Assembly (NCBI RefSeq): GCF_001913705.1
Contig: NZ_MKQD01000018.1
Coordinates: 1 to 64,000, forward strand
Origin: Thalassotalea sp. PP2-459
GTDB taxonomy: Bacteria > Pseudomonadota > Gammaproteobacteria > Enterobacterales > Alteromonadaceae
Direction: 5' to 3'
Length of the DNA stretch: 64,000 nt
Positions 31,084 through 43,474 of this stretch are shown here, piece after piece (the stretch's first letter is position 1; every line of letters begins with the position of its first letter). Under the pieces are notes generated by a model, which ran no database searches, was not told where the DNA came from, and was given only the letters and a program-made list of their open reading frames with translations. A program made the position numbers and the translations under genes.

Positions 31084-31239
31084 GGCGATTATCGGTAATA
31101 TGTTTTTGCTAATGATACGCCTAAGTGTTGTATAACCGAAACTATTTATTCGATGAATAGTTGAGATACAGTGAATTAATTTAGCGAATACGCTATATCA
31201 GTGATACATTTTCGCTATTGTTAACCGATGAGAACCGTG

Positions 31240-32367
31240 ATGACTTATTCTTCGTTTATTCCGCCACAGCGAATTTTAATGGGCCCAGGCCCCTCAGATG
31301 TTAGTCCACAAGTACTTTCAGCCCTTGCACGACCTACTATCGGGCATTTAGACCCTTTATTTGTTGGTATGATGGATGAAGTAAAAAGTTTATTGCAATA
31401 TGCCTTTCAAACCTCGAATGAAATGACCTTGGCTTTGTCAGCACCTGGCTCTGCCGGTATGGAAGCTTGCTTTGTTAATTTAATTACACCTGATGACACG
31501 GTAGTGGTTTGCCAAAACGGTGTATTCGGTTCCAGAATGTCAGAGAATGTGAAACGTATCGGGGCAAAGTTAGTGCTCATTGAAGGGGAATGGGGAAGAG
31601 CGGTTGATCCTGAATCACTTGATGCCACACTTTTACAACATCCGGAGGCAAAATTTGTCGCTTTTGTACATGCTGAAACATCAACAGGGGCACGTTCAGA
31701 CGCTAAAGTACTGAGCGAAATTGCTCAACAATATAATTGTTTAACCATTGTTGATGCCGTAACGTCGCTTGGTGGTTGTGAGCTAAAAGTTGATGAATGG
31801 GGAATCGATGCTATTTATTCCGGTAGCCAAAAATGCTTATCTTGTGTACCGGGCATTTCACCGATTAGTTTTAGCGAAAAGGCGGTTGAAGTGATTAAAC
31901 ATCGAAAAATACCGATACAAAGTTGGTTTCTTGACCAATCACTGGTGATGGGGTATTGGTCAGGAAAAGGCAAACGTGCCTATCACCATACAGCGCCGGT
32001 AAATTCATTGTACGCATTACATGAAGCATTGCTGTCGTTAAAAAGAGAAGGATTAGAAAATGCATGGAAGCGTCATCAAGAAATGCATGATTTATTAGCC
32101 AAGGGTTTGGCTGAATTAGGTTTAGATTTTGTTGTTCCTGAGAACGAACGATTGGCTCAACTTAATACGGTGTATATTCCTCAAGGGATAAATGATGAAG
32201 AAGTGCGACGTTATTTACTTAATGAATACAACTTGGAAATAGGCGCAGGGCTTGGAAATTTTGCTGGCAAAGCGTGGCGTATTGGTTTAATGGGCTATGG
32301 GGCACGAAAAGAAAATATTGCTTTGTGCTTAGCTGCGCTTAAAGAGGTCTTAGCGCTATTTAAATAA
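31240..32367 (+). CDS. Class V aminotransferase (serine-glyoxylate/alanine-glyoxylate type)
   Basis: This 375-residue PLP enzyme has LMGPGPSDVSPQVLSALARPTIGHLDP at the start, the cofactor-stacking block SAPGSAGMEACFVNL, VDAVTSLGG (PLP-binding Asp) and the Schiff-base lysine in YSGSQKCLSCVPG. These are typical of the alanine/serine-glyoxylate and purine catabolism aminotransferases. The substrate is not determinable here; alanine:glyoxylate is the most common activity in this subgroup. ATG 31240 is preferred to ATG 31228 because GATGAGAA lies just upstream. Confidence 0.9.
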   Translation: MTYSSFIPPQRILMGPGPSDVSPQVLSALARPTIGHLDPLFVGMMDEVKSLLQYAFQTSNEMTLALSAPGSAGMEACFVNLITPDDTVVVCQNGVFGSRMSENVKRIGAKLVLIEGEWGRAVDPESLDATLLQHPEAKFVAFVHAETSTGARSDAKVLSEIAQQYNCLTIVDAVTSLGGCELKVDEWGIDAIYSGSQKCLSCVPGISPISFSEKAVEVIKHRKIPIQSWFLDQSLVMGYWSGKGKRAYHHTAPVNSLYALHEALLSLKREGLENAWKRHQEMHDLLAKGLAELGLDFVVPENERLAQLNTVYIPQGINDEEVRRYLLNEYNLEIGAGLGNFAGKAWRIGLMGYGARKENIALCLAALKEVLALFK

Positions 32368-32391: not shown

Positions 32392-33078
32392 TTAGGCTGA
32401 AGTTGCTTGTGCTGCTTTACTTGCGTCATCCATAATATTAGCTACATATCGATAAGTTTGAAAAGCGCTGAGCTCAAGCACTTTATACTGTTTTTCTGAT
32501 AAAGGCATGTTATTAATTGTTTCTATAATATCTTGCTTGTGTTGCACATCTAAAATTGCATGGTGCATCAATGCATTAAATGCTTCTTTAGGTAATCTTG
32601 AGCGCTCTACCAGCTCGTTAACGTAGTCAACTGTCGGTGGGTGTGTTTCTGTGCAAGCCAAATATCCCATAATAGCAACAGGATCAACATGCTTTATTAG
32701 AAAGTATTGAGAACCGATAAATGTGGTTATATTGAGAGATGGAATTCGATCTTCCGCTTCTGCTTGGCTAACACCCATGACGGCCAAATCTTCTAAAAAC
32801 CACTCATCATGCCCAGTTTCTTCCGGAATATGTTTCTTCATATAACCAGCAAGTAATTGATAAACAGGGTCGTGCATTTTCTTTAAGGATTCATTTAATG
32901 CTTCTTGCATTAGATTAATGGAGGCATTAGAAATTCGATAACTTGAATATGCTTGTTCTATGCATGCATTGACTGAGTGAGAGTGAGTAGTATAGTTTTC
33001 ATTGGCGACACAAGCTCTGTTTTCCATGAAAGAAAGGCTTTTTTCAAGCCTTTCAAAATTTGAAAGATTTTTAGCCAT
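32392..33078 (-). CDS. Haem-oxygenase-like putative diiron oxidase/oxygenase
   Basis: This 228-residue, largely helical protein fits the iron-containing redox enzyme group of the haem-oxygenase-like diiron (HDO) fold. Likely metal ligands are Glu86/Glu87 and His90 in IPEETGHDEWFLEDLAVMGV, Glu144 or His146 in ACTETHPP, and His173, Asp177 and His180 in HHAILDVQHKQD. Known HDO enzymes do oxidative C-C cleavage, N-oxygenation or amino-acid fragmentation, often in natural-product pathways. Its ATG overlaps the stop codon of the 58-residue peptide gene upstream (TAATG), so it is probably translated with it. This makes the peptide the first candidate substrate. Confidence 0.75.
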   Translation of the reverse strand: MAKNLSNFERLEKSLSFMENRACVANENYTTHSHSVNACIEQAYSSYRISNASINLMQEALNESLKKMHDPVYQLLAGYMKKHIPEETGHDEWFLEDLAVMGVSQAEAEDRIPSLNITTFIGSQYFLIKHVDPVAIMGYLACTETHPPTVDYVNELVERSRLPKEAFNALMHHAILDVQHKQDIIETINNMPLSEKQYKVLELSAFQTYRYVANIMDDASKAAQATSA

Positions 33079-33254
33079 TAAATACCGATACCTACAGGCT
33101 TACCTTTTGTCCCCTTTACTTTTTTGTTGATTGATTTCAATTGTTCAACTTCTTCTTTTGAAAGACTCTCTATTGCCTTTATTTGCTCATCGTGTAACTG
33201 CTCTTTATTGATTACGCCTTCTGCATGTAAATGTTCTACGTTTGATTTGTCCAT
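33078..33254 (-). CDS. 58-residue candidate RiPP precursor peptide
   Basis: ATG 33254 has AGGAT about 9 bases upstream, and the stop codon TAA overlaps the ATG of the haem-oxygenase-like gene. The peptide runs MDKSNVEHLHAEGVINKEQL and continues with the leader-like acidic helix DEQIKAIESLSKEEVEQLKS (22-41). It ends with the basic, Gly-rich tail KKVKGTKGKPVGIGI (44-58). A charged helical leader followed by a short, compositionally different core is the usual layout of a ribosomal peptide precursor. It may also be a small regulatory partner of the enzyme. No cysteine is present. Confidence 0.7.
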   Translation of the reverse strand: MDKSNVEHLHAEGVINKEQLHDEQIKAIESLSKEEVEQLKSINKKVKGTKGKPVGIGI

Positions 33255-33431
33255 TTTTATGAATCCTATGAAATTTAAAGTTTGATCTGTTTTATATTTT
33301 AATCAATTGCAAATACTAGAATAAGGAAATTTTTTTAATATTGTCAAGAGAATAAAAATGAGCTTTTACTTTTTAGAGTATTACTTCACAATGTGGATAA
33401 TAAAAAATAACTTAAATTTTGAAATGTGCGA

Positions 33432-36400
33432 ATGATTAAACTTTGTTTATTAGCTGCTTATTGCTTCTTTCTTGTTTTTTGTAACTTATCTACAGCTAGA
33501 GAAGGCAGCATTAACCAATTAGATCTTAATTTTGAACGGTTTGGTACTGCTGATGGTATGTCGCAAACAACTGTAAATGACATATTGCAGGATTCAAGTG
33601 GTTTTTTATGGGTAGCTACAGATGGGAATTTAAACCGATATGATGGCTATATTTTTAAACATTATAATTTTAATAATCCAAGAATATCTGTTTTACATGA
33701 AACAATCAAAGGTGAAATTTGGGCTGGCTCAGATGGAGGTTTGTATCATTATATTAAGAAAATTGATGAGTTTAAAAAAGTAGGATTTTCATCGTCTAGA
33801 GAAGGGGAAATAATTAACAGTATTGCTTCAGATTCGAAAGGGAATCTTTGGGTAGGTACTGATAACGGCTTGTTTTTAATTAATAATACAAATGAAGTTG
33901 TACGAAAATACTTTACTAAACATGCAGTCACCAGTTTACTAGTTGATGGTGAGGGTAATATTTGGGGAGCCAAGCAGAATCGAAAGGCACTTAATTCAAA
34001 TTTATTTTTAATCGAGGGTAATGATACAGAATCTACTATTGCTTTTGAAACTATATTTAAAATTAACGATGTTAAGCAACACACTCAAAAGGGACTTTTT
34101 ATTGCAACGACTAAAGGAGTGTTCACTTTTGATAGTAAATCAAAAGTGTTTCAAAAAATTGAAAGGTTAGATGGCATAGAAAATGTAAATTCATTGTATT
34201 TTCGTAATGCTTCAGAGTTATGGATTGGAACAAGTAATGGCGGTTATAAATACCAATTTCAAAATAATGAAATTTTATATTTCTCTCATCAGCAATCTAA
34301 ATCTCGAAGTCTAAGCCATCCCGAAATTAGTTTGATTAAGAAGGGCAGTAACGATACCTTGTGGTTTGGTACAAGAGCCGGAGGTTTGAACAAGCTTGAT
34401 TTGACCTTAGGTCAGTTTAAGTTAGTTGATAAGGCCAAATATAATACACTTACGAGTAATGTTATTTTAGGGTTTGAGGAAACAGCAAAAAACTATTACT
34501 TTGCAACTTATGGGGGAGGTATTTACAGTCTTGATAAAGAATCTGAAGTATTAACACATTTGCCTATAAATAATAAACTAGGTACGTTATTAACTGTATC
34601 TCTATTATTCAGTGATGACCAAAAAACTCTTTACATTGCGACAGCGGATAATGGCTTATTTGTAGTTAATTTAGAAACAGAAAAAATTAAACATTTTAAA
34701 AACAAATCAACTGATTCAAAAACGATTAGCCATAATGTGTTGACTAAATTATTTATTGATAATAAAAAGTTGCTTGTGGGTACAATGGGTGGCGGTCTAA
34801 ACATACTTGATTTGACAGATGGAAACTTTGAAAACTTTCTATTTGATGAAAATATAAAATCAAGTATTTCAAATAACAATATTTGGGATATAAAAAAGAT
34901 TGATGAGGATACTTTTTGGGTTGCTACTGATTCTGGTGTTAGTGTTTTAAATTTAAGTACTTCTAAATTTCATCCTTTAGTTCTTTCTACAAGCGAAAAA
35001 CAGAACAGTTTTTTTGACGACTTAACTGTATGGGCAATTACAGAGCATCAGCAACAATACTGGTTTGCTACTTCGTTTGGCTTGATTACTTTTAATTCTG
35101 AACTTGATAAATTTATTGTTTATGATGAAAAAAATGGTTTAGCAAATAATAATGTTTACGCAGTGTTACCAGATAAGAATGGGAATTTGTGGATAAGCAC
35201 GAACAAAGGCCTATCGAAGTTTGATATGAAACGACAGGTTTTTAAAAACTATAATCAAAGTGATGGCGTCCAAGGCAGTGAGTTTAATTCTTTAAGTTAT
35301 TTCAAAGCTAAATCAGGGGAGTTATTCTTTGGTGGCGTGAATGGTTTTAATCGTTTTTTCCCCGCTGACATTAAAGATGATACATCGTTACCTAAAGTTG
35401 TGTTGACTGATTTTTTAGTACATAACAAACATGTTGAAATTCAGTCAAGTGAAAACAAAAATGAGAAAAAACGTAATGTGAATAGTGCTGGTTTCACGAT
35501 TCCATCCGATATTAATGAATTAGAACGCTTAAAGTTAACATACGATGAAAAGCTGGTTACCTTTGAATTTGCCGCGCTGCATTTTGCAGCCCCAATGAAT
35601 AATCAATACGCCTATAAACTTGAAGGTTTTGATGAGCAATGGATTTATACCGATGCCAAAAATAGAAGGGCAACATATACCAGTTTACCCTCAGGTGATT
35701 ATACATTACGTGTAAAGGCGAGCAATGGAGACGGGTACTGGAATGAAACAGGTAAATCACTCAATATAACTGTGCTACCACCAATGTGGCGGACCTGGTG
35801 GGCTTATACAATATATTTAATTTTGATCATCGGCATTATTGGATTGATCTTATATCGGCAAAATTATCAGCGATTAAAAGAGCACGCAATAAATGTGCAG
35901 TTAAAACGTGCGGACAGATTAAAGGATGAGTTTTTAGCGAATACATCTCATGAGTTACGTACCCCACTCAACGGGATTATTGGCTTAGCTGAATCATTAA
36001 TTGATGGTGTTTCTGGGCAGTTGCCCGAATCTGCTAATAAAAACCTTGCTATGGTTGTTGCCAGTGGTAAGCGTTTATCAAATCTTGTTAATGACATTCT
36101 CGACTTTTCAAAATTAAAAAATCATACCTTAAAATTGAATTTAACGGGGGTTGAGTTACATAGTTTAACTGACGTTGTAATGACGGTGTCTACTCCGCTG
36201 ATTGGAGATAAAAATATTACACTTATTAACCGTGTATCTAGTGAACTTCCTATTGTTAATGCTGACGAGAACCGATTAGAACAAATTTTATATAACTTGA
36301 TCGGTAATGCGATAAAATTTACCGAAAATGGTGAGGTAACTATTGATGCAGAACAAAGCGGTAATGTCGTTAAAATTTCGGTAACAGACACTGGTATTGG

Positions 36401-39400
36401 TATAGCAGCAGAACAACTACATCTTATTTTTAACTCTTTTGAACAGTTAAAAGGCCAAACGAATAGAGATCATAGTGGGACAGGCTTAGGTTTAACCGTT
36501 ACAAAACAACTTGTTGAATTACATGAAGGTACAATATCAGTAACCTCTGAATTGGGTAAAGGGAGTTGTTTTAGTTTTACTTTGCCAATTGATAATGACC
36601 ATATTACTGATGTCACAAATATTGTTAAGTCGACGAATCAACAGAAGCTAAATCGTTTACAACACCTTGATAATGAAATTGAGTATATCAGTATAGATGA
36701 AAGCGAGTTAATATCTCAGCAAAATAGGCAGCTAAATTATCAAAACTATCATATCTTAGTGGTAGATGATGATCCGATTAATCGTCAAGTGTTATTGAAC
36801 CACTTAAATCTGAAAGGGTATCAGTTAACAGAAGCTGCCAGCGGCAAACAAGCATTGTCTTTAATTGAAGATGCTACAGATAGCAGCGAAGAAAAAACTC
36901 GACCTTTTGATTTAATATTACTCGATATTATGATGCCAAAAATGTCAGGCTATGAGGTATGTAATCAAATAAGAGAATGGTATTCGTTAAATGAATTACC
37001 CGTAATTTTTCTGACAGCAAAAAATCAGGTAATCGACTTAGTAGAAAGCTTTTCGGTTGGTGGTAATGATTATTTAACTAAACCTATTTCTAAACATGAA
37101 CTATTAACCCGTGTTGAAAATCACTTAAGTTTACTTGATATCAACCGACACCTTGAGTATCAAGTGTCTAGCCGTACCGCTGAACTAGAAAAAGCGACAC
37201 AGGCGAAAAGTGAGTTTCTCGCTAAAATGAGCCATGAAATTCGCACACCTATGAATGCTATTATCGGTTTAAGTCATTTAGCATTCAAAACCAAACTTGA
37301 TAATCACCAGAAAGATTTAATTGGTAAAATTCAAGATGCCTCACAAGCGTTGCTCGCACTTATTAACGACATATTAGATTTTTCTAAGATTGAAGCAGGT
37401 AAAATGACCATTGAGTCAGTGGTGATGAATATAGAGGCGCTGATTAAAAAAACAGCTAACATATGTGCTTTAAAAGCACATAGCAAAGGGTTAGAGCTAG
37501 TGGTAAGAATTGCACCTGATGTACCTAAACAAATTAAATCTGATCCTATCAGGCTGCAACAGATATTGGTGAACCTTGCGAGTAATGCAATCAAATTTAC
37601 TGAAAGTGGTCACGTATTAATTGAGGTTAAGTCTACCGAAAATAACACACTTGAATTTTCAGTGTCAGATACGGGGATAGGTTTAGATGAAAATACCATG
37701 GAAAACCTTTTTACCTCATTCAATCAAGCTGATACCTCTATAACCCGTCGCTTTGGTGGTACAGGGCTTGGTTTATCGATTTGTAAGCAACTGACCACGC
37801 TTATGGGGGGTAAAATATGGGTAGACAGCCAATTAGGGGAAGGGAGTACTTTTGGTTTTACGGTGCATTATGAAGAAGTCGAACAAAGTGAGTTACTTGC
37901 TGCACAATCGTTAATGATCGAGGGAATAAATGTATTGGTTGTTGATGATAATGCACTTTGTTTAAATGTGTTAGATGCTTTGTTAAAACAGTTTGGTTGC
38001 AAAATCACAACAACGGAAAGTGCTATAACAGCACTTGAGCTTATTGATAACGCGATATTACTTGAACAACCATTTGATTTAGTGATCACTGACTGGCGTA
38101 TGCCCAAAATGGATGGTATTGAACTGGCGCATCGAATAAACAAATTAACTGAAAAGCATGATATACCAGCAGTATTAATGGTGACGGCATTCGACAAAAA
38201 TGATGCAATGACTTTGTCGCATGAGGCTGGTATTGACGGCTTCTTAGAGAAGCCTGTTGATGCATCTTTATTATTAGATGCGATGATGAATGCATTAAAG
38301 CTTGAACAAAAACATTTAGAATATCATCAAGTACAAAAAGGTATTTTAGATTTATCTCATAGTCGTATACTGCTTGTTGAAGATAATGCTTTAAATCAAC
38401 AAGTGGTTCTTGGATTTTTAGAAGAAACAGGTGTGAATATTGATATCGCAGAAAATGGACAAGTGGCGATTGATAAATTAGACAGTGAAAGCTACGACCT
38501 TGTGTTTATGGATTTACAAATGCCGATAATGGATGGGTTAACGGCAACAAAAATTATTCGTGCAAACGATCAATTTAGTAATTTGCCTATCATTGCAATG
38601 ACCGCCCATGCCATGCAAGAGGAATTAGATCGTTGTTTAGAAGTAGGAATGAATGATTATTTTACTAAACCGATAGATCCAAATGCTTTATATATCTTGT
38701 TATCAAAGTGGCTAAATAATGAAGCAGTGAGTGAACAAGTAACACTGATAAAAAGCGATGAAACGCGACAGAAAATCACCCATCAAAAGCGAAATACAGA
38801 ATCAGACCAAACGAAGGAAGTGTCTCTGTTAGCAGAGATAGAAAAGCTCCCGTGCCTTGATGCTAAAACAGCGATTAAAACTATGGGGGGGCGTGAGCAT
38901 TTATATCAAAAGTTAGTACAGCAATTTGCTAAAAACTACGCTGATACAGTAGATTCTCTGCGTGAAATATACAAGCAACAAGATTATGATAGTGCTTATA
39001 GGGTTGCACATTCTTTAAAGTCTAATGCAAATTATATTGGTGCATTAACGTTGGCAAAGCGGGCTACTCAGCTTGAGTCTCAACTTAAAAGTGAGCCAGA
39101 ATCGGCTGATTTACTGGTTGCTGAAACATCGATTGAATTGAATAATGTGTTAATCGCACTTGAAAGTTTACCGTTTAGTTTAGCTGCTAAAGAGCAGTCT
39201 GGTACAGCGATTGTTAACGTTCAGTATTATCAAAGGCAGTTAACATCTTTGTTATCATCGATAAAAGAACTGTTAGTTGATGAAAATGCCCAAGTAGAAG
39301 ATTTACTACCGCGACTGTTAACAATTACTCAAGGAAGTGAACATGAGCAATTAGCCAAAAAAATAGCAGATGACATTGATGACATTGAATATGCACAAGC

Positions 39401-39476
39401 AATTAATGATATAGAGGCGATATTAGCAACAATAACTGGCGCTAATGTTTCAAATAATAAAAATGATAAAGAATAA
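33432..39476 (+). CDS. Giant hybrid sensor kinase (Reg_prop, HK-REC-HK-REC-REC-HPt)
   Basis: This is a protein of about 2,014 residues. After a signal peptide (about 1-22) come two seven-bladed propellers made of Reg_prop repeats (about 40-650; LWVGTDNGL, LWIGTSNGG, LWFGTRAGG, LWISTNKGLSKFD). A Y_Y_Y domain (about 700-785) and one membrane helix (about 790-810) follow. The cytosolic part has a first kinase core (TSHELRTPLN, His about 842; ATPase GTGLGLTV), a receiver (Asp about 1167), and a second kinase core (MSHEIRTPMN, His about 1270; GGTGLGLSI). Two more receivers (Asp about 1556 and 1696) and a C-terminal HPt (AHSLKSNANYIG, His about 1862) complete it. Such sensors usually detect periplasmic sugars or other polymers. 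It is likely co-transcribed with the diguanylate cyclase, whose start lies 7 bp after its stop. Confidence 0.93.
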   Translation: MIKLCLLAAYCFFLVFCNLSTAREGSINQLDLNFERFGTADGMSQTTVNDILQDSSGFLWVATDGNLNRYDGYIFKHYNFNNPRISVLHETIKGEIWAGSDGGLYHYIKKIDEFKKVGFSSSREGEIINSIASDSKGNLWVGTDNGLFLINNTNEVVRKYFTKHAVTSLLVDGEGNIWGAKQNRKALNSNLFLIEGNDTESTIAFETIFKINDVKQHTQKGLFIATTKGVFTFDSKSKVFQKIERLDGIENVNSLYFRNASELWIGTSNGGYKYQFQNNEILYFSHQQSKSRSLSHPEISLIKKGSNDTLWFGTRAGGLNKLDLTLGQFKLVDKAKYNTLTSNVILGFEETAKNYYFATYGGGIYSLDKESEVLTHLPINNKLGTLLTVSLLFSDDQKTLYIATADNGLFVVNLETEKIKHFKNKSTDSKTISHNVLTKLFIDNKKLLVGTMGGGLNILDLTDGNFENFLFDENIKSSISNNNIWDIKKIDEDTFWVATDSGVSVLNLSTSKFHPLVLSTSEKQNSFFDDLTVWAITEHQQQYWFATSFGLITFNSELDKFIVYDEKNGLANNNVYAVLPDKNGNLWISTNKGLSKFDMKRQVFKNYNQSDGVQGSEFNSLSYFKAKSGELFFGGVNGFNRFFPADIKDDTSLPKVVLTDFLVHNKHVEIQSSENKNEKKRNVNSAGFTIPSDINELERLKLTYDEKLVTFEFAALHFAAPMNNQYAYKLEGFDEQWIYTDAKNRRATYTSLPSGDYTLRVKASNGDGYWNETGKSLNITVLPPMWRTWWAYTIYLILIIGIIGLILYRQNYQRLKEHAINVQLKRADRLKDEFLANTSHELRTPLNGIIGLAESLIDGVSGQLPESANKNLAMVVASGKRLSNLVNDILDFSKLKNHTLKLNLTGVELHSLTDVVMTVSTPLIGDKNITLINRVSSELPIVNADENRLEQILYNLIGNAIKFTENGEVTIDAEQSGNVVKISVTDTGIGIAAEQLHLIFNSFEQLKGQTNRDHSGTGLGLTVTKQLVELHEGTISVTSELGKGSCFSFTLPIDNDHITDVTNIVKSTNQQKLNRLQHLDNEIEYISIDESELISQQNRQLNYQNYHILVVDDDPINRQVLLNHLNLKGYQLTEAASGKQALSLIEDATDSSEEKTRPFDLILLDIMMPKMSGYEVCNQIREWYSLNELPVIFLTAKNQVIDLVESFSVGGNDYLTKPISKHELLTRVENHLSLLDINRHLEYQVSSRTAELEKATQAKSEFLAKMSHEIRTPMNAIIGLSHLAFKTKLDNHQKDLIGKIQDASQALLALINDILDFSKIEAGKMTIESVVMNIEALIKKTANICALKAHSKGLELVVRIAPDVPKQIKSDPIRLQQILVNLASNAIKFTESGHVLIEVKSTENNTLEFSVSDTGIGLDENTMENLFTSFNQADTSITRRFGGTGLGLSICKQLTTLMGGKIWVDSQLGEGSTFGFTVHYEEVEQSELLAAQSLMIEGINVLVVDDNALCLNVLDALLKQFGCKITTTESAITALELIDNAILLEQPFDLVITDWRMPKMDGIELAHRINKLTEKHDIPAVLMVTAFDKNDAMTLSHEAGIDGFLEKPVDASLLLDAMMNALKLEQKHLEYHQVQKGILDLSHSRILLVEDNALNQQVVLGFLEETGVNIDIAENGQVAIDKLDSESYDLVFMDLQMPIMDGLTATKIIRANDQFSNLPIIAMTAHAMQEELDRCLEVGMNDYFTKPIDPNALYILLSKWLNNEAVSEQVTLIKSDETRQKITHQKRNTESDQTKEVSLLAEIEKLPCLDAKTAIKTMGGREHLYQKLVQQFAKNYADTVDSLREIYKQQDYDSAYRVAHSLKSNANYIGALTLAKRATQLESQLKSEPESADLLVAETSIELNNVLIALESLPFSLAAKEQSGTAIVNVQYYQRQLTSLLSSIKELLVDENAQVEDLLPRLLTITQGSEHEQLAKKIADDIDDIEYAQAINDIEAILATITGANVSNNKNDKE

Positions 39477-39483
39477 TCATCGT

Positions 39484-40398
39484 ATGGAACTAGAAAGTTT
39501 TGACCTTAAAGTGTTAATTGTTGATGACGAAAAAGCTAATCGAAAAATATTAAAAGAGCTTTTGCAAGAACAAGCAAAAATTATCTTTGCTAAAAACGGT
39601 GAACAAGCCATCGAATTTGCTAAGAAACACGTACCTGATTTAATTCTATTAGACGTAGTGATGCCTGACAAGTCAGGTTTTGATGTTATAGAAGTGATCA
39701 AAAACGACCCCGTTACCATGGCAACCTCAGTGATATTTATTACCGGTCTAGCCAATTGCAATGATGAGGAAAAAGGCTTTGCATTAGGAGGTTGTGATTA
39801 TATTTATAAGCCTTTTAATACCAATATTGTTTCTGCGCGAATTTCAACCCATCTTGAACTTATTCAGCAACGTAAAATGCTTGATAGTATAGCGCATGTT
39901 GATGCCTTAACGGGGATTTCAAACCGCAGAAAGCTTGATAAAGTACTGAATGATGAGTTAGCCGCCAATAAGCGAGATAAAAAACAATTACTGGTAGCCA
40001 TGCTAGATGTTGATTATTTTAAGCAATTTAATGACCACTATGGTCATGGTGCAGGAGATATAGCGCTTAAAAAAATAGCGTCTTTATTTCGTGAAGTACT
40101 TAATCGGCCAAGAGACTTCGTTGCACGTTATGGAGGAGAAGAATTTACCGTAATCTTGCCTGATTGTAATGAACAAGGAGCTAGTCTAGTATTAAATAAT
40201 ATAGTAAAGGCATTGGCTGCTAAAGAAATAGTTCATGAGTATTCAGATGCGGCTAAATATTTGACCATCAGTGTGGGCGCAATACTGGTCAACGGTGAAC
40301 AAGCATACAATGTTCAGCAGGTACTTGATACGGCAGATCGTTTGCTCTATCAAGCAAAAAACAATGGCCGTAATCAAGTTGTGCTTGAATGTTTATAA
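39484..40398 (+). CDS. Response regulator with GGDEF domain (diguanylate cyclase)
   Basis: This protein of about 304 residues makes cyclic di-GMP from two GTP. The receiver domain (about 1-120) has VDDEKAN and the phospho-acceptor in ILLDVVMPDKSG. The GGDEF domain (about 140-304) has DALTGISNRRKLD, MLDVDYFKQFNDHYGHGAGD and the active-site GGEEF. An RxxD inhibitory site (RPRD) sits exactly five residues before GGEEF, so feedback by the product is expected. It probably receives phosphate from the hybrid kinase upstream. In-frame ATGs at 39445 and 39463 would overlap that gene. Confidence 0.92.
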   Translation: MELESFDLKVLIVDDEKANRKILKELLQEQAKIIFAKNGEQAIEFAKKHVPDLILLDVVMPDKSGFDVIEVIKNDPVTMATSVIFITGLANCNDEEKGFALGGCDYIYKPFNTNIVSARISTHLELIQQRKMLDSIAHVDALTGISNRRKLDKVLNDELAANKRDKKQLLVAMLDVDYFKQFNDHYGHGAGDIALKKIASLFREVLNRPRDFVARYGGEEFTVILPDCNEQGASLVLNNIVKALAAKEIVHEYSDAAKYLTISVGAILVNGEQAYNVQQVLDTADRLLYQAKNNGRNQVVLECL

Positions 40399-40455: not shown

Positions 40456-42417
40456 TTAGCTAACGTGTGAAGAGGCCATTTCATTCACTATTTTTTCAAT
40501 GTTTAAATTACCACCTGGCGAATCTTCATTACTAGGCATTTCGGCTTGTGCCAGAGGAAATGCAAGGGCCATTACACATTTACTTAAATGAATGATTAGA
40601 TGGTTTTCAGTTAACCAGTGCAGCGTGTCTTCTATTTGCTGAGTATTATTTGAAATTTGCTGTTCATCGAGTTTTTTGATTAATCTATCTTTTGGCAAGG
40701 GCTCTGCACATAAACGATAAATATCCGCCGTTAAACCCGCTAATGTGTGAGAAAAAGCAGTCGCTACTTGTCGTGTATCAAAAATAATAATGTTATTGCC
40801 ATGATCTGTCATACAACACATTGGAATTGTGCCGTTTAGCCAACTATCACTCCAGTTGTTTAGTAATGATTGCACCTTTGCATGTGAATTAGTTGCTGGC
40901 TTAAAGGTAAAATTTAGCGTGTATATCCCTGTTTCTTTATCGTTTGCCTGAATGAAAAAATACGCGAGGTTATAAACAACTTGTTTATCTAGTGGATAAA
41001 TATATTGATAACTTTTGGTTGGCTCGAGTGTTAAACCAAACTTTTCTGGGGTATTAAAGTATGGGCTAAAGCGGTGGTAACAAATTTTGGCCATTTGATC
41101 GAACGGTGGATGGTAATGTGTCACTAAAGGCAGCCATTCAGCCATTTCATCATACCAAAATGCTTGCTCATTAGGGGCTTCGCATAATAAATTCCAGGTC
41201 ACTCGAACGCCATAACTACGACACCACTTAAGTGCTGCAAGGTTTTGTATTGCTGTAGTGCCTTTTTTTATTGCCTTAAGAAAATCGTCATGCAAGCCTT
41301 CAATGCCAGGTTGTATCCACTTTATTCCAGCCTCAGCTAGCGATTTAACATGGTGTTGTTTTAAGTTAGCTTTGGTCTCATAAAATAAATTATAGGCAGG
41401 ATCTTCTGCTAATGTAGGTAGCACCGTTTTCATGTATTCTATCGGTAATATATTATCGACAATTAAAAATTTATCGACGTTGTATTTGCTCGATAAATTT
41501 TTAAATTCACTTAATGCAGCTTCAGGTGTTTTTGAACGGTGATCCATAGTACCGCCATTTAAACCGCAAAAAGTGCAGTGTTGTTTTGCTCCCCACCAAC
41601 AACCTCGAGAGGTTTCAGCGACTAAACCTGGGGAAATGTATTGTCCAATTTTTAGACTCTCTAATGATTGAAAATAGCTGTCAAAAATTGGCTCTCCAAC
41701 TTTTCTCATGTCTGAAATATAGGCACGAGGTGGCTTTTGTGTTTGCCCAGCATCAACGGCAAGTGACTTGTGTTTTTGGCTAATAAAGCCGTTTGGTAAA
41801 TTTTGGTAGTTAATTGGCTCGTTTTTCATTAGTTTGTCAATGAAAGGGCCTATCACGTCATCACATTCGCCGGAGAAAACATAATCAACCCATGAAAAGC
41901 TCTCACTGATTGTTTGCCCCATAATGCCTTCACAGTTAGCCCCTCCCATTAAAGTAATAATACTGCTATCAAGACTTTTAATTTTTCTTAACAAGGCAAG
42001 TGACGCACAATTTTGTTGAAAGGTAGAGGTACAACCGACAATTTTTGGGCTGTTGCTGACAATTTCGTTGGCAAGTGAGTCGATGTAGCGCTCAGCGGTT
42101 TCTCTGATGGTTAACAGTTTTTGCTTATTTTCATCAGACAAATCAGTAAAAAGCGCAAAAAAGCCGTCATCATCAGCTGGTTTGTCAGGAAACGCTGCTT
42201 TAGAAAACGTCCACTCGCCAATTAAATAATCATTAAATGTGTTATCGATGAAGTTATATTCAATCAGACCAATTTGTTTCGCAAAAACTAAGTTGGCGTA
42301 TAGTGATTCAACGTTATAGCCATATTCTGTGATATACGTTTCAAGCACTCCCATTGCCATTGAAGGAATTGTTAACGAAGTGTATGGCATACACACTAAA
42401 TAAATATCTTTGTCCAT
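40456..42417 (-). CDS. B12-binding radical SAM protein, RiPP-maturation type
   Basis: This 653-residue protein has an N-terminal cobalamin-binding-like domain (about 1-205; VCMPYTSLTIPSMAMGVLE, VGCTSTFQQNC, LMGGANCEG). The radical SAM core (about 260-450) has a widely spaced iron-sulfur motif, Cys273-x7-Cys281-x2-Cys284 (ETSRGCWWGAKQHCTFCGLNG). The C-terminal region (about 470-653) is less conserved. The GCWWGxxxxCxFCGLNG signature and layout recall ribosomal peptide maturation radical SAM protein 1 (TIGR03975), several members of which methylate unactivated carbons of peptides. It is 94 bp downstream of the AdoMet decarboxylase homologue on the same strand. No short peptide gene was found beside it. 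Confidence 0.82.
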   Translation of the reverse strand: MDKDIYLVCMPYTSLTIPSMAMGVLETYITEYGYNVESLYANLVFAKQIGLIEYNFIDNTFNDYLIGEWTFSKAAFPDKPADDDGFFALFTDLSDENKQKLLTIRETAERYIDSLANEIVSNSPKIVGCTSTFQQNCASLALLRKIKSLDSSIITLMGGANCEGIMGQTISESFSWVDYVFSGECDDVIGPFIDKLMKNEPINYQNLPNGFISQKHKSLAVDAGQTQKPPRAYISDMRKVGEPIFDSYFQSLESLKIGQYISPGLVAETSRGCWWGAKQHCTFCGLNGGTMDHRSKTPEAALSEFKNLSSKYNVDKFLIVDNILPIEYMKTVLPTLAEDPAYNLFYETKANLKQHHVKSLAEAGIKWIQPGIEGLHDDFLKAIKKGTTAIQNLAALKWCRSYGVRVTWNLLCEAPNEQAFWYDEMAEWLPLVTHYHPPFDQMAKICYHRFSPYFNTPEKFGLTLEPTKSYQYIYPLDKQVVYNLAYFFIQANDKETGIYTLNFTFKPATNSHAKVQSLLNNWSDSWLNGTIPMCCMTDHGNNIIIFDTRQVATAFSHTLAGLTADIYRLCAEPLPKDRLIKKLDEQQISNNTQQIEDTLHWLTENHLIIHLSKCVMALAFPLAQAEMPSNEDSPGGNLNIEKIVNEMASSHVS

Positions 42418-42511: not shown

Positions 42512-43474
42512 TTATAGGGTAAAATAATCTTCGTCTAATGCTAGTTCAATAGGTGAAGTTGCTTGTGATTGAGGCAAGATATAATGAGCAAAATTTACTT
42601 GATAACTGTGTTTAATGTGTTTTGTTACATTCGACTGGCAAGTATATCTATTATCGATATATTTTGCTGTAAACATGTCGAAATTAGTTTCATTAAAGGT
42701 AAGTAAATCGAAGGCATTAGGTGCTAGTACCTCAAGTATAATAGGCACTAAGGCTAATAAGTTGATATTCGACTCAAAAGAGATATAACTACTGCCACGT
42801 TGCGGAGTTACGTGAATAGTAAAGTACCATTTATCTTTAATGGCATTTAAAGAGTAACCAAATGGTTCAAAAACAAAGTCATCCAACGTAAAGCCTGGAA
42901 TTAATCGTTTAAGCTGTAAAAATTTCCTCACATCACTTGCTGTAAGCGTAGGGTTAGTGAGTACTGCTGAAGCGCGATCACTTATTTGGTAGGTTGTTAG
43001 CTCATAGGTTTTAGCCGTAGGAATACTTTTAACGTTATTATTTAGCTGAAATAAATAATTATGATGACTATCTAAGTTGCCAAAGCGAAATGCTTTTCCT
43101 GATAAATAATCTTGTAATCGTTTCGCGTCTTGGCCAAAGTTACTTGATTGTGCATGAGAAAAGTATTCATTTTTTCGTTGGTATATGAAATGTTCAACTA
43201 CATTAATACCATATTTCTCGAAGAAAAAAATGGCTGAATTTACCAGTTGAGTAATACCACATGTGATAATTAATAAGCGGTCTTTCCAAATAAAAAGGCT
43301 GGACTCTGACAATAAATATGCGCGGCAATGTTTGTTTTCAATTGAGGACAAAATTTTTGCATTGCAAGCGTTTACGAGATCTTTCCAAACACAAGTATCA
43401 ATGTCAGTTAGTAAGTTTAATTGCTTACAATCAACAATTAACTCTGTTTTCTTTTCAGAACCTTCATAAAACAA
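42512..43474 (-). CDS. Eukaryotic-type S-adenosylmethionine decarboxylase homologue
   Basis: This 320-residue protein aligns along its length with the human/plant AdoMetDC family, not with bacterial SpeD. It has YEGSEK at the start (Glu4, Glu7) and the self-cleavage site YLLSESSLF, where Ser58 would become the pyruvoyl group. Cys72 is in TCGIT, and FGYSLN (Ser208) and TIHVTP (His221) supply the processing residues. The residue matching human Glu247, which holds the ribose of AdoMet, is Gln225, and human Phe7 matches Tyr3. It may therefore use AdoMet differently or decarboxylate another amino acid. The TTG start is forced by an in-frame stop 2 codons upstream; GGGGA lies about 8 bases upstream. 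It pairs with the radical SAM gene. Confidence 0.85.
   Translation of the reverse strand: MFYEGSEKKTELIVDCKQLNLLTDIDTCVWKDLVNACNAKILSSIENKHCRAYLLSESSLFIWKDRLLIITCGITQLVNSAIFFFEKYGINVVEHFIYQRKNEYFSHAQSSNFGQDAKRLQDYLSGKAFRFGNLDSHHNYLFQLNNNVKSIPTAKTYELTTYQISDRASAVLTNPTLTASDVRKFLQLKRLIPGFTLDDFVFEPFGYSLNAIKDKWYFTIHVTPQRGSSYISFESNINLLALVPIILEVLAPNAFDLLTFNETNFDMFTAKYIDNRYTCQSNVTKHIKHSYQVNFAHYILPQSQATSPIELALDEDYFTL

Follow-up and report, generated by a model that had tools for sequence, protein, structure and literature searches.

According to the respective papers, PoyC is a B12 radical-SAM enzyme with a Cx7CxxC motif which methylates Ile and Val (PMC11285071), the reaction being a Cβ-methylation (PMC5682303, PMC11285071), and leader removal is carried out by PoyH, a stand-alone C1A protease (PMC10885120). 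The polytheonamide (poy) system is of the proteusin type, with a large leader, a core of about 49 residues and epimerisation. Deletion of VarO, a haem-oxygenase-like protein of the RiPP thiovarsolin, abolishes a desaturation (PMC6511847), and a 2026 review of haem-oxygenase-like dimetal oxidases (HDOs) cites this paper for ribosomal peptide modification (PMC13108848). MboA is an HDO that acts on a tripeptide, carries a 3-His/3-carboxylate ligand set and binds the C-terminal carboxylate of its substrate; in MboA and four other HDOs the substrate carboxylate is bound to iron (PMC13185094). The leader of StsA is bound through a WxxP motif (PMC12710340).

A stretch of 64,000 nucleotides from Thalassotalea sp. 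PP2-459 (contig NZ_MKQD01000018.1, positions 1 to 64,000), here termed the window, was analyzed. It harbors the following features:

33078..33254, minus strand: precursor peptide gene, 58 aa (ORF; homologues in 15/295 family genomes; NF045560 leader match)
33264..33267, minus strand: AGGA, likely ribosome-binding site of the peptide gene (sequence)
33081..33098, minus strand: proposed core, last six residues PVGIGI (conservation anchored on the C-terminus; core limits inferred)
32392..33078, minus strand: HDO, 228 aa (PF14518, 41.7 bits, cut-off 28.9)
33426..39476, plus strand: hybrid sensor kinase with Reg_prop propeller and Y_Y_Y domain, about 2000 aa (Pfam), divergent from the peptide gene
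39445..40398, plus strand: response regulator carrying a diguanylate cyclase (GGDEF) domain (both PF00990 and PF00072 score over cut-off)
40456..42417, minus strand: putatively B12-binding radical-SAM C-methyltransferase, 653 aa, PoyC-like (TIGR03975, 658.2 bits, cut-off 281.85; PF04055; Cx7CxxC)

On genome evidence, a precursor with leader and core stands next to modifying enzymes, as in a RiPP locus. Its radical SAM has the Cx7CxxC motif in common with PoyC, and a papain-like protease of the same genome resembles PoyH in standing alone; in contrast to poy, the set consists of a 58-aa precursor with about six core residues and an HDO, and the window peptide has no proteusin leader match. Like VarO, the HDO is a haem-oxygenase-like protein within a putative RiPP cluster; VarO belongs to a YcaO-TfuA thioamide pathway and acts on Arg. 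Fold and ligand pattern are those of MboA (mangotoxin), AetD and UndA; the sequence similarity to MboA is weak, and the MboA substrate is made by amino-acid ligases and not by the ribosome. Among the matches listed in the open literature, outside which most subscription papers lie, no paper on the peptide/HDO/radical-SAM set was found. Apparently, the locus encodes an uncharacterised RiPP pathway composed of known parts, a combination which we did not find described in that literature.

Conservation of the peptide gene and layout of the peptide

A preliminary description of this DNA had reported a 58-codon ORF with a ribosome site, whose TAA overlaps the ATG of the enzyme gene. This is correct, strand included: AGGA is located 9 bases ahead of the peptide ATG, and the TAA of the peptide gene and the ATG of the HDO gene have one base in common. 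The same overlap was found in 9 of 18 peptide/HDO pairs (17 genes and one metagenome contig), the remaining pairs being separated by 0 to 92 bases; hence, the proposed translational coupling agrees with the arrangement in the window and is common, but not universal.

A search profile built from nine peptides detected 17 genes at E<1e-15, distributed over 15 of 295 family genomes. Weak partial matches in three more genomes and at one more place, all within long frames and with E values from 3e-4 to 0.009, were set aside. Hosts are Thalassotalea, Colwellia and Pseudocolwellia; among 185 genomes of the class, the window's own genome alone gave a match. All 17 peptide genes are located directly upstream of a close HDO, and these HDOs form one clade. 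A protein search of 98 relatives located the peptide in eight genomes at nine places, and the same eight carry a close HDO (E<1e-50); in addition, G031 has a more distant one (E 2e-28). With the HDO profile, 19 genes in 17 of the 295 genomes were found at E<1e-50, two of these genomes (G031 and G114) being without peptide. At E<=1e-15 the HDO matched in 91/295 genomes and the peptide in only 15, so that distant HDO homologues mostly occur without it. The peptide gene appeared to be under purifying selection in the only close pair amenable to measurement (dN 0.04, dS 0.19, resting on only 5 and 6 changes; dS was saturated in two other pairs tried). A random ORF is ruled out by the conservation of the peptide. 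Thus, neither of the two findings that would have spoken against the preliminary description, a peptide ORF that is not conserved and an enzyme never found beside such an ORF, was obtained.

Two loci (L037 and L147, of G050 and G141) contain two peptide-HDO pairs each, with different core types. A metagenome contig labelled Flavobacteriaceae (L057) carries the cluster, its proteins being 43-72% identical to the reference proteins from the loci of the family (peptide 67%, radical SAM 70%), and is probably misbinned.

Precursors of the set have a length of 57-64 residues. When the 17 distinct peptides were aligned from the stop codon, Gly was found at position -4 in all of them, an aliphatic residue (Ile, Val or Leu) at -3 in 16/17, and Ile, Leu, Val or Phe at -1 in 17/17. 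The leader has the invariant residues L, H, K, I, L, S and E and is followed by ten to fifteen residues of variable length and composition. The peptide is therefore likely to consist of leader, spacer and core, with the core at about residues 53-58 (PVGIGI) instead of 44-58. An AlphaFold2 model of the peptide (mean pLDDT 79, last block 52) showed three helices (residues 5-11, 22-29 and 33-49), the peptide being loose from residue 50 onwards. Of the acidic helical front and basic Gly/Pro tail originally described, the front agrees with this model; the tail is real in the window peptide, but conservation is confined to its last six residues. Likewise, of the oxidation sites suggested at first (Lys, Pro or the C-terminal Gly-Ile), Lys and the basic tail fall into the variable spacer and were rejected as core, leaving the C-terminal Gly-Ile end as the only conserved one.

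The window peptide reached 29.7 bits with the model NF045560 ("aroma-sacti cluster domain"), just short of the cut-off of 30; it was the only hit near a curated cut-off. All nine peptides scanned matched this model, every score being below the curated cut-off, and they also weakly matched an StsA-type RiPP model. A genome search with NF045560 gave matches in 4/98 relatives at E<=0.001 and in 0/98 over cut-off. The precursors are thus alike to aroma-sacti and StsA-type precursors (NF045560, NF045559) in the leader; WxxP, present in the StsA leader, is absent from the peptide described here. A sactipeptide was rejected, since the window peptide is without Cys and hence cannot form a sactionine link. 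A proteusin leader was also rejected, as no NHLP model was among the hits of the window peptide at E<=1; one of nine relatives' peptides gave an NHLP-type match (E 0.13).

The HDO and its partner genes

In the HDO, the putative ligands E87, H90, E144, H173, D177 and H180 were invariant in 10/10 aligned sequences. The AlphaFold2 model (pLDDT 94.8) gave 3dde, UndA and CADD as best Foldseek matches, with TM scores of 0.76-0.77 to 3dde and UndA. According to model and alignment, the enzyme has the fold of the HDO superfamily and a putative 3-His/3-carboxylate ligand set. A comparison of the HDO profile with characterised HDOs gave weak matches to AetD (E 6e-4) and MboA (E 0.04); in the latter, likewise weak, profile alignment the putative ligands line up with those of MboA, the additional Asp that follows the first His among them. 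A contig scan with the single HDO sequence revealed no relatives, and a scan with the HDO alignment revealed 10 loci, most of them on contigs already among the family genomes. More distant HDO matches were located in frames of about 690-730 aa (L014, L020, L028 and plasmid hits H8-H12); some Pseudoalteromonas places with distant HDO matches are annotated as AMP-binding protein and are perhaps fusions.

Three partners had been overlooked in the preliminary description: the putatively B12-binding radical SAM in the same window, the divergent sensor kinase, and a papain-like protease encoded at another place in the genome. The radical SAM gene is located 7 kb from the peptide/HDO pair, and its TIGR03975 match covers 605/606 model positions; the B12-binding model PF02310 scored 16.7 bits (cut-off 32.1), and no PDB sequence match was obtained. 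Cx7CxxC was present in 14/14 radical-SAM proteins checked, a count excluding those of G001, G002 and G003, which were not checked whole. TIGR03975 was over cut-off in 14/15 peptide-positive genomes and in 2/280 others (Fisher 6e-21); in G041 the gene is 77 kb away. The exception, G188, is the sole peptide-positive genome without a radical SAM over cut-off; the enzyme is therefore not essential everywhere. Moreover, Ala occurs at -3 in no core but that of G188 (TTGAPF), a hint that the methyl site may be -3; this is one case, and G050a has Leu there.

Within the phylum, 8/398 genomes have TIGR03975 over cut-off, six of them outside the family. The HDO profile found no match in the 11 to 15 kb stretches taken from these six (0/6), so that no general pairing of HDO and TIGR03975 beyond the family was found there. 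A sister arrangement is present in G031 and G114, the two peptide-negative family genomes with TIGR03975 over cut-off (L042, 2869-3910; L150, 3696-4706): HDO and radical SAM stand side by side as in the window set, but the adjoining precursor of 86-94 aa belongs to another, Os17/NHLP-like family (27.2 bits to NF038399, cut-off 40) and ends in TSLKIT, and no papain-like protease match was found. Directly upstream of the radical SAM, the window encodes an adenosylmethionine decarboxylase of the PF01536 type (42512-43474, minus strand; 177 bits, cut-off 22.2). In G107, which belongs to the same species, the radical SAM and the GGDEF regulator are separated by about 4.4 kb that the window lacks (L143, 4997-9386); ORFs of 1021 and 405 aa are located in this segment.

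A papain-like protease was detected in 8/8 peptide-positive and 0/90 other relatives (Fisher 6e-12) at E<1e-50, a cut-off set after the list was seen; at E<=1e-10 two peptide-negative relatives showed weak partial matches (E 6e-15). When all peptide-positive genomes were searched, it was present in 15/15. The gene adjoins the HDO in ten of these and is single-copy and far from the HDO in the five genomes of the window's genus. The unlinked protease of the window genome, at C37:107341-108147 of G000, matches PF00112 with 35.7 bits (cut-off 20.7). Gln, Cys, His and Asn, the four residues characteristic of C1A (papain) proteases, are present in an alignment of 14 proteases. In G002, a 75-aa protease remnant adjoins the HDO (L038, 6770-6997), and a full copy is located elsewhere.

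The kinase ORF is divergent from and next to the peptide gene in 15/15 peptide-positive genomes, in one of them as two frames at a contig end, and the GGDEF regulator adjoins the kinase in 14/15 loci, the contig ending in the remaining one. The best matches to the sensor part were at the peptide loci in 8/8 positive relatives. Related kinases are common, with 26/98 genomes matching the sensor part at E<=1e-60; a homologue in G031 that is away from the HDO locus scored 437 bits, above the 430 bits of the G027 kinase at its peptide locus. An aminotransferase (31228-32367) adjoins the pair in the window's genus and was not counted as a pathway member, because it was not seen in the loci of other genera. 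Neither an RRE domain nor a transporter was found among the proteins scanned, which did not include unlabelled flanking ORFs.

Three peptide classes were defined by the C-terminal residue (Ile/Val; Leu; Phe). The nearest kinase relative belonged to the same class in 4/11 loci, as compared to 11/11 for the HDOs of the same loci. The kinase sequence thus does not follow the last core residue, a result that speaks for a role of the product as a defence molecule (bacteriocin or antibiotic) instead of a signal for the divergent kinase. Many RiPPs are antimicrobial, and the cores differ among species, as would suit such a role. That no immunity gene was identified and that the peptide-positive loci seen also contain the kinase and the GGDEF regulator both point away from defence; neither is decisive, and we regard a defence molecule as a serious possibility that falls just short of being favored.

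Covariation of the HDO with the last core residue

As MboA and other HDOs bind the substrate carboxylate to iron, the peptide end was examined. For 17/17 HDOs the nearest HDO relative belonged to the same -1 class (15/15 without two near kin), the classes having been chosen after the HDO tree was seen; this tree was poorly resolved (5/16 inner branches starred) and was therefore not used by itself. As a control, the ten loci with a checked radical SAM were analyzed: the nearest radical-SAM relative was of the same class in 4/10 (1614 of 20000 permutations were as good), and the HDOs of the same loci gave 10/10. HDO similarity tracked position -1 above all other scoreable positions (z 7.45, 0/4000 permutations; 42 positions, one class scheme).

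Furthermore, the window itself is informative. Its HDO is only 43-44% identical to the HDOs of its genus, the closest being HDOs with cores ending in PVGIx[I/V], whereas its kinase is 76% identical to those of the genus and its radical SAM 81-90% over the part covered. The core is PVGIGI in the window versus GVGIML in its genus. It seems that, in this lineage, change in the HDO went along with change at the core end, and the kinase remained close.

Since the HDO sequence tracks the last residue of the peptide, the HDO most likely reads or oxidises this residue. The covariation is strong but not proof, because the classes were set post hoc and linked genes share history; likeness in sequence, moreover, does not equal likeness in activity. 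Given the shared history, the HDO could instead have its site further inside the core or use the product after leader removal, the covariation reflecting no more than the joint travel of peptide and HDO genes. This would be consistent with the correlation of HDO similarity with further positions (-8, z 4.41; leader +31, z 4.30; then 3.67; -5, z 3.41) and of the leader with the last residue (z 4.67). However, -1 is clearly the strongest position, and the neighboring HDOs of G141a/G141b and of G207/G050b are paired with cores which differ at -5 and -6 and belong to the same -1 class; we consider an inner site unlikely, if still plausible. A peptide that is a small regulatory or structural HDO subunit translated in step, with the HDO acting on a free metabolite, would fit the overlap in 9/18 pairs and the strict pairing as well, but is very improbable, as RiPP leader models match the leader, variation in the spacer is free, the conserved end keeps a constant distance to the stop codon, and the co-occurring RiPP radical SAM and papain-like protease would be unexpected for a subunit.

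Proposed pathway and its meaning

The best reading of the locus is that of a RiPP precursor worked on by the HDO. The original proposal holds in this respect, as the peptide is conserved, always stands beside the HDO in the peptide-positive genomes seen, has a RiPP-related leader, and is tracked by the HDO sequence at its last residue; the Lys/basic tail, envisaged as core, was abandoned. We think it probable that the product is a small RiPP formed from leader/spacer and a PVGIGI core, methylated by the radical SAM, oxidised at its last residue by the HDO and freed by the protease. The reactions, their order, their sites and the product are inferred, with methylation, oxidation and release proposed by analogy with PoyC, PoyH, VarO and MboA. 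The ORF product would be a small RiPP precursor with its first ~50 residues forming a helical leader and a variable spacer. The PoyC-like, putatively B12-binding radical SAM would methylate an aliphatic, unactivated carbon in a core Ile or Val, perhaps that at -3. The two-iron site of the HDO would take the free C-terminal carboxylate and oxidise the last residue by hydroxylation, desaturation or oxidative decarboxylation, and the papain-like protease, encoded elsewhere in the window genome, would release a core of about six residues.

HDOs in RiPP pathways are almost unexplored, VarO being the one case met in the literature consulted (PMC6511847, PMC13108848). The combination of a C-methylating enzyme with an HDO that appears to read the last residue would represent leader-guided tailoring of free C-termini, with a predicted site of a single residue. 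Additionally, the protease indicates that the genes of a RiPP pathway may lie at separate places of the chromosome and yet be found through co-occurrence. More speculatively, the product may be a Gram-negative peptide pheromone, i.e. a hexapeptide-sized, C-methylated and C-terminally oxidised RiPP which is sensed by the Reg_prop kinase and relayed to the GGDEF regulator; we hold this to be unlikely. If true, a modified peptide would be coupled to c-di-GMP, and the HDO would diverge in step with the peptide tail, in the manner of a dialect.
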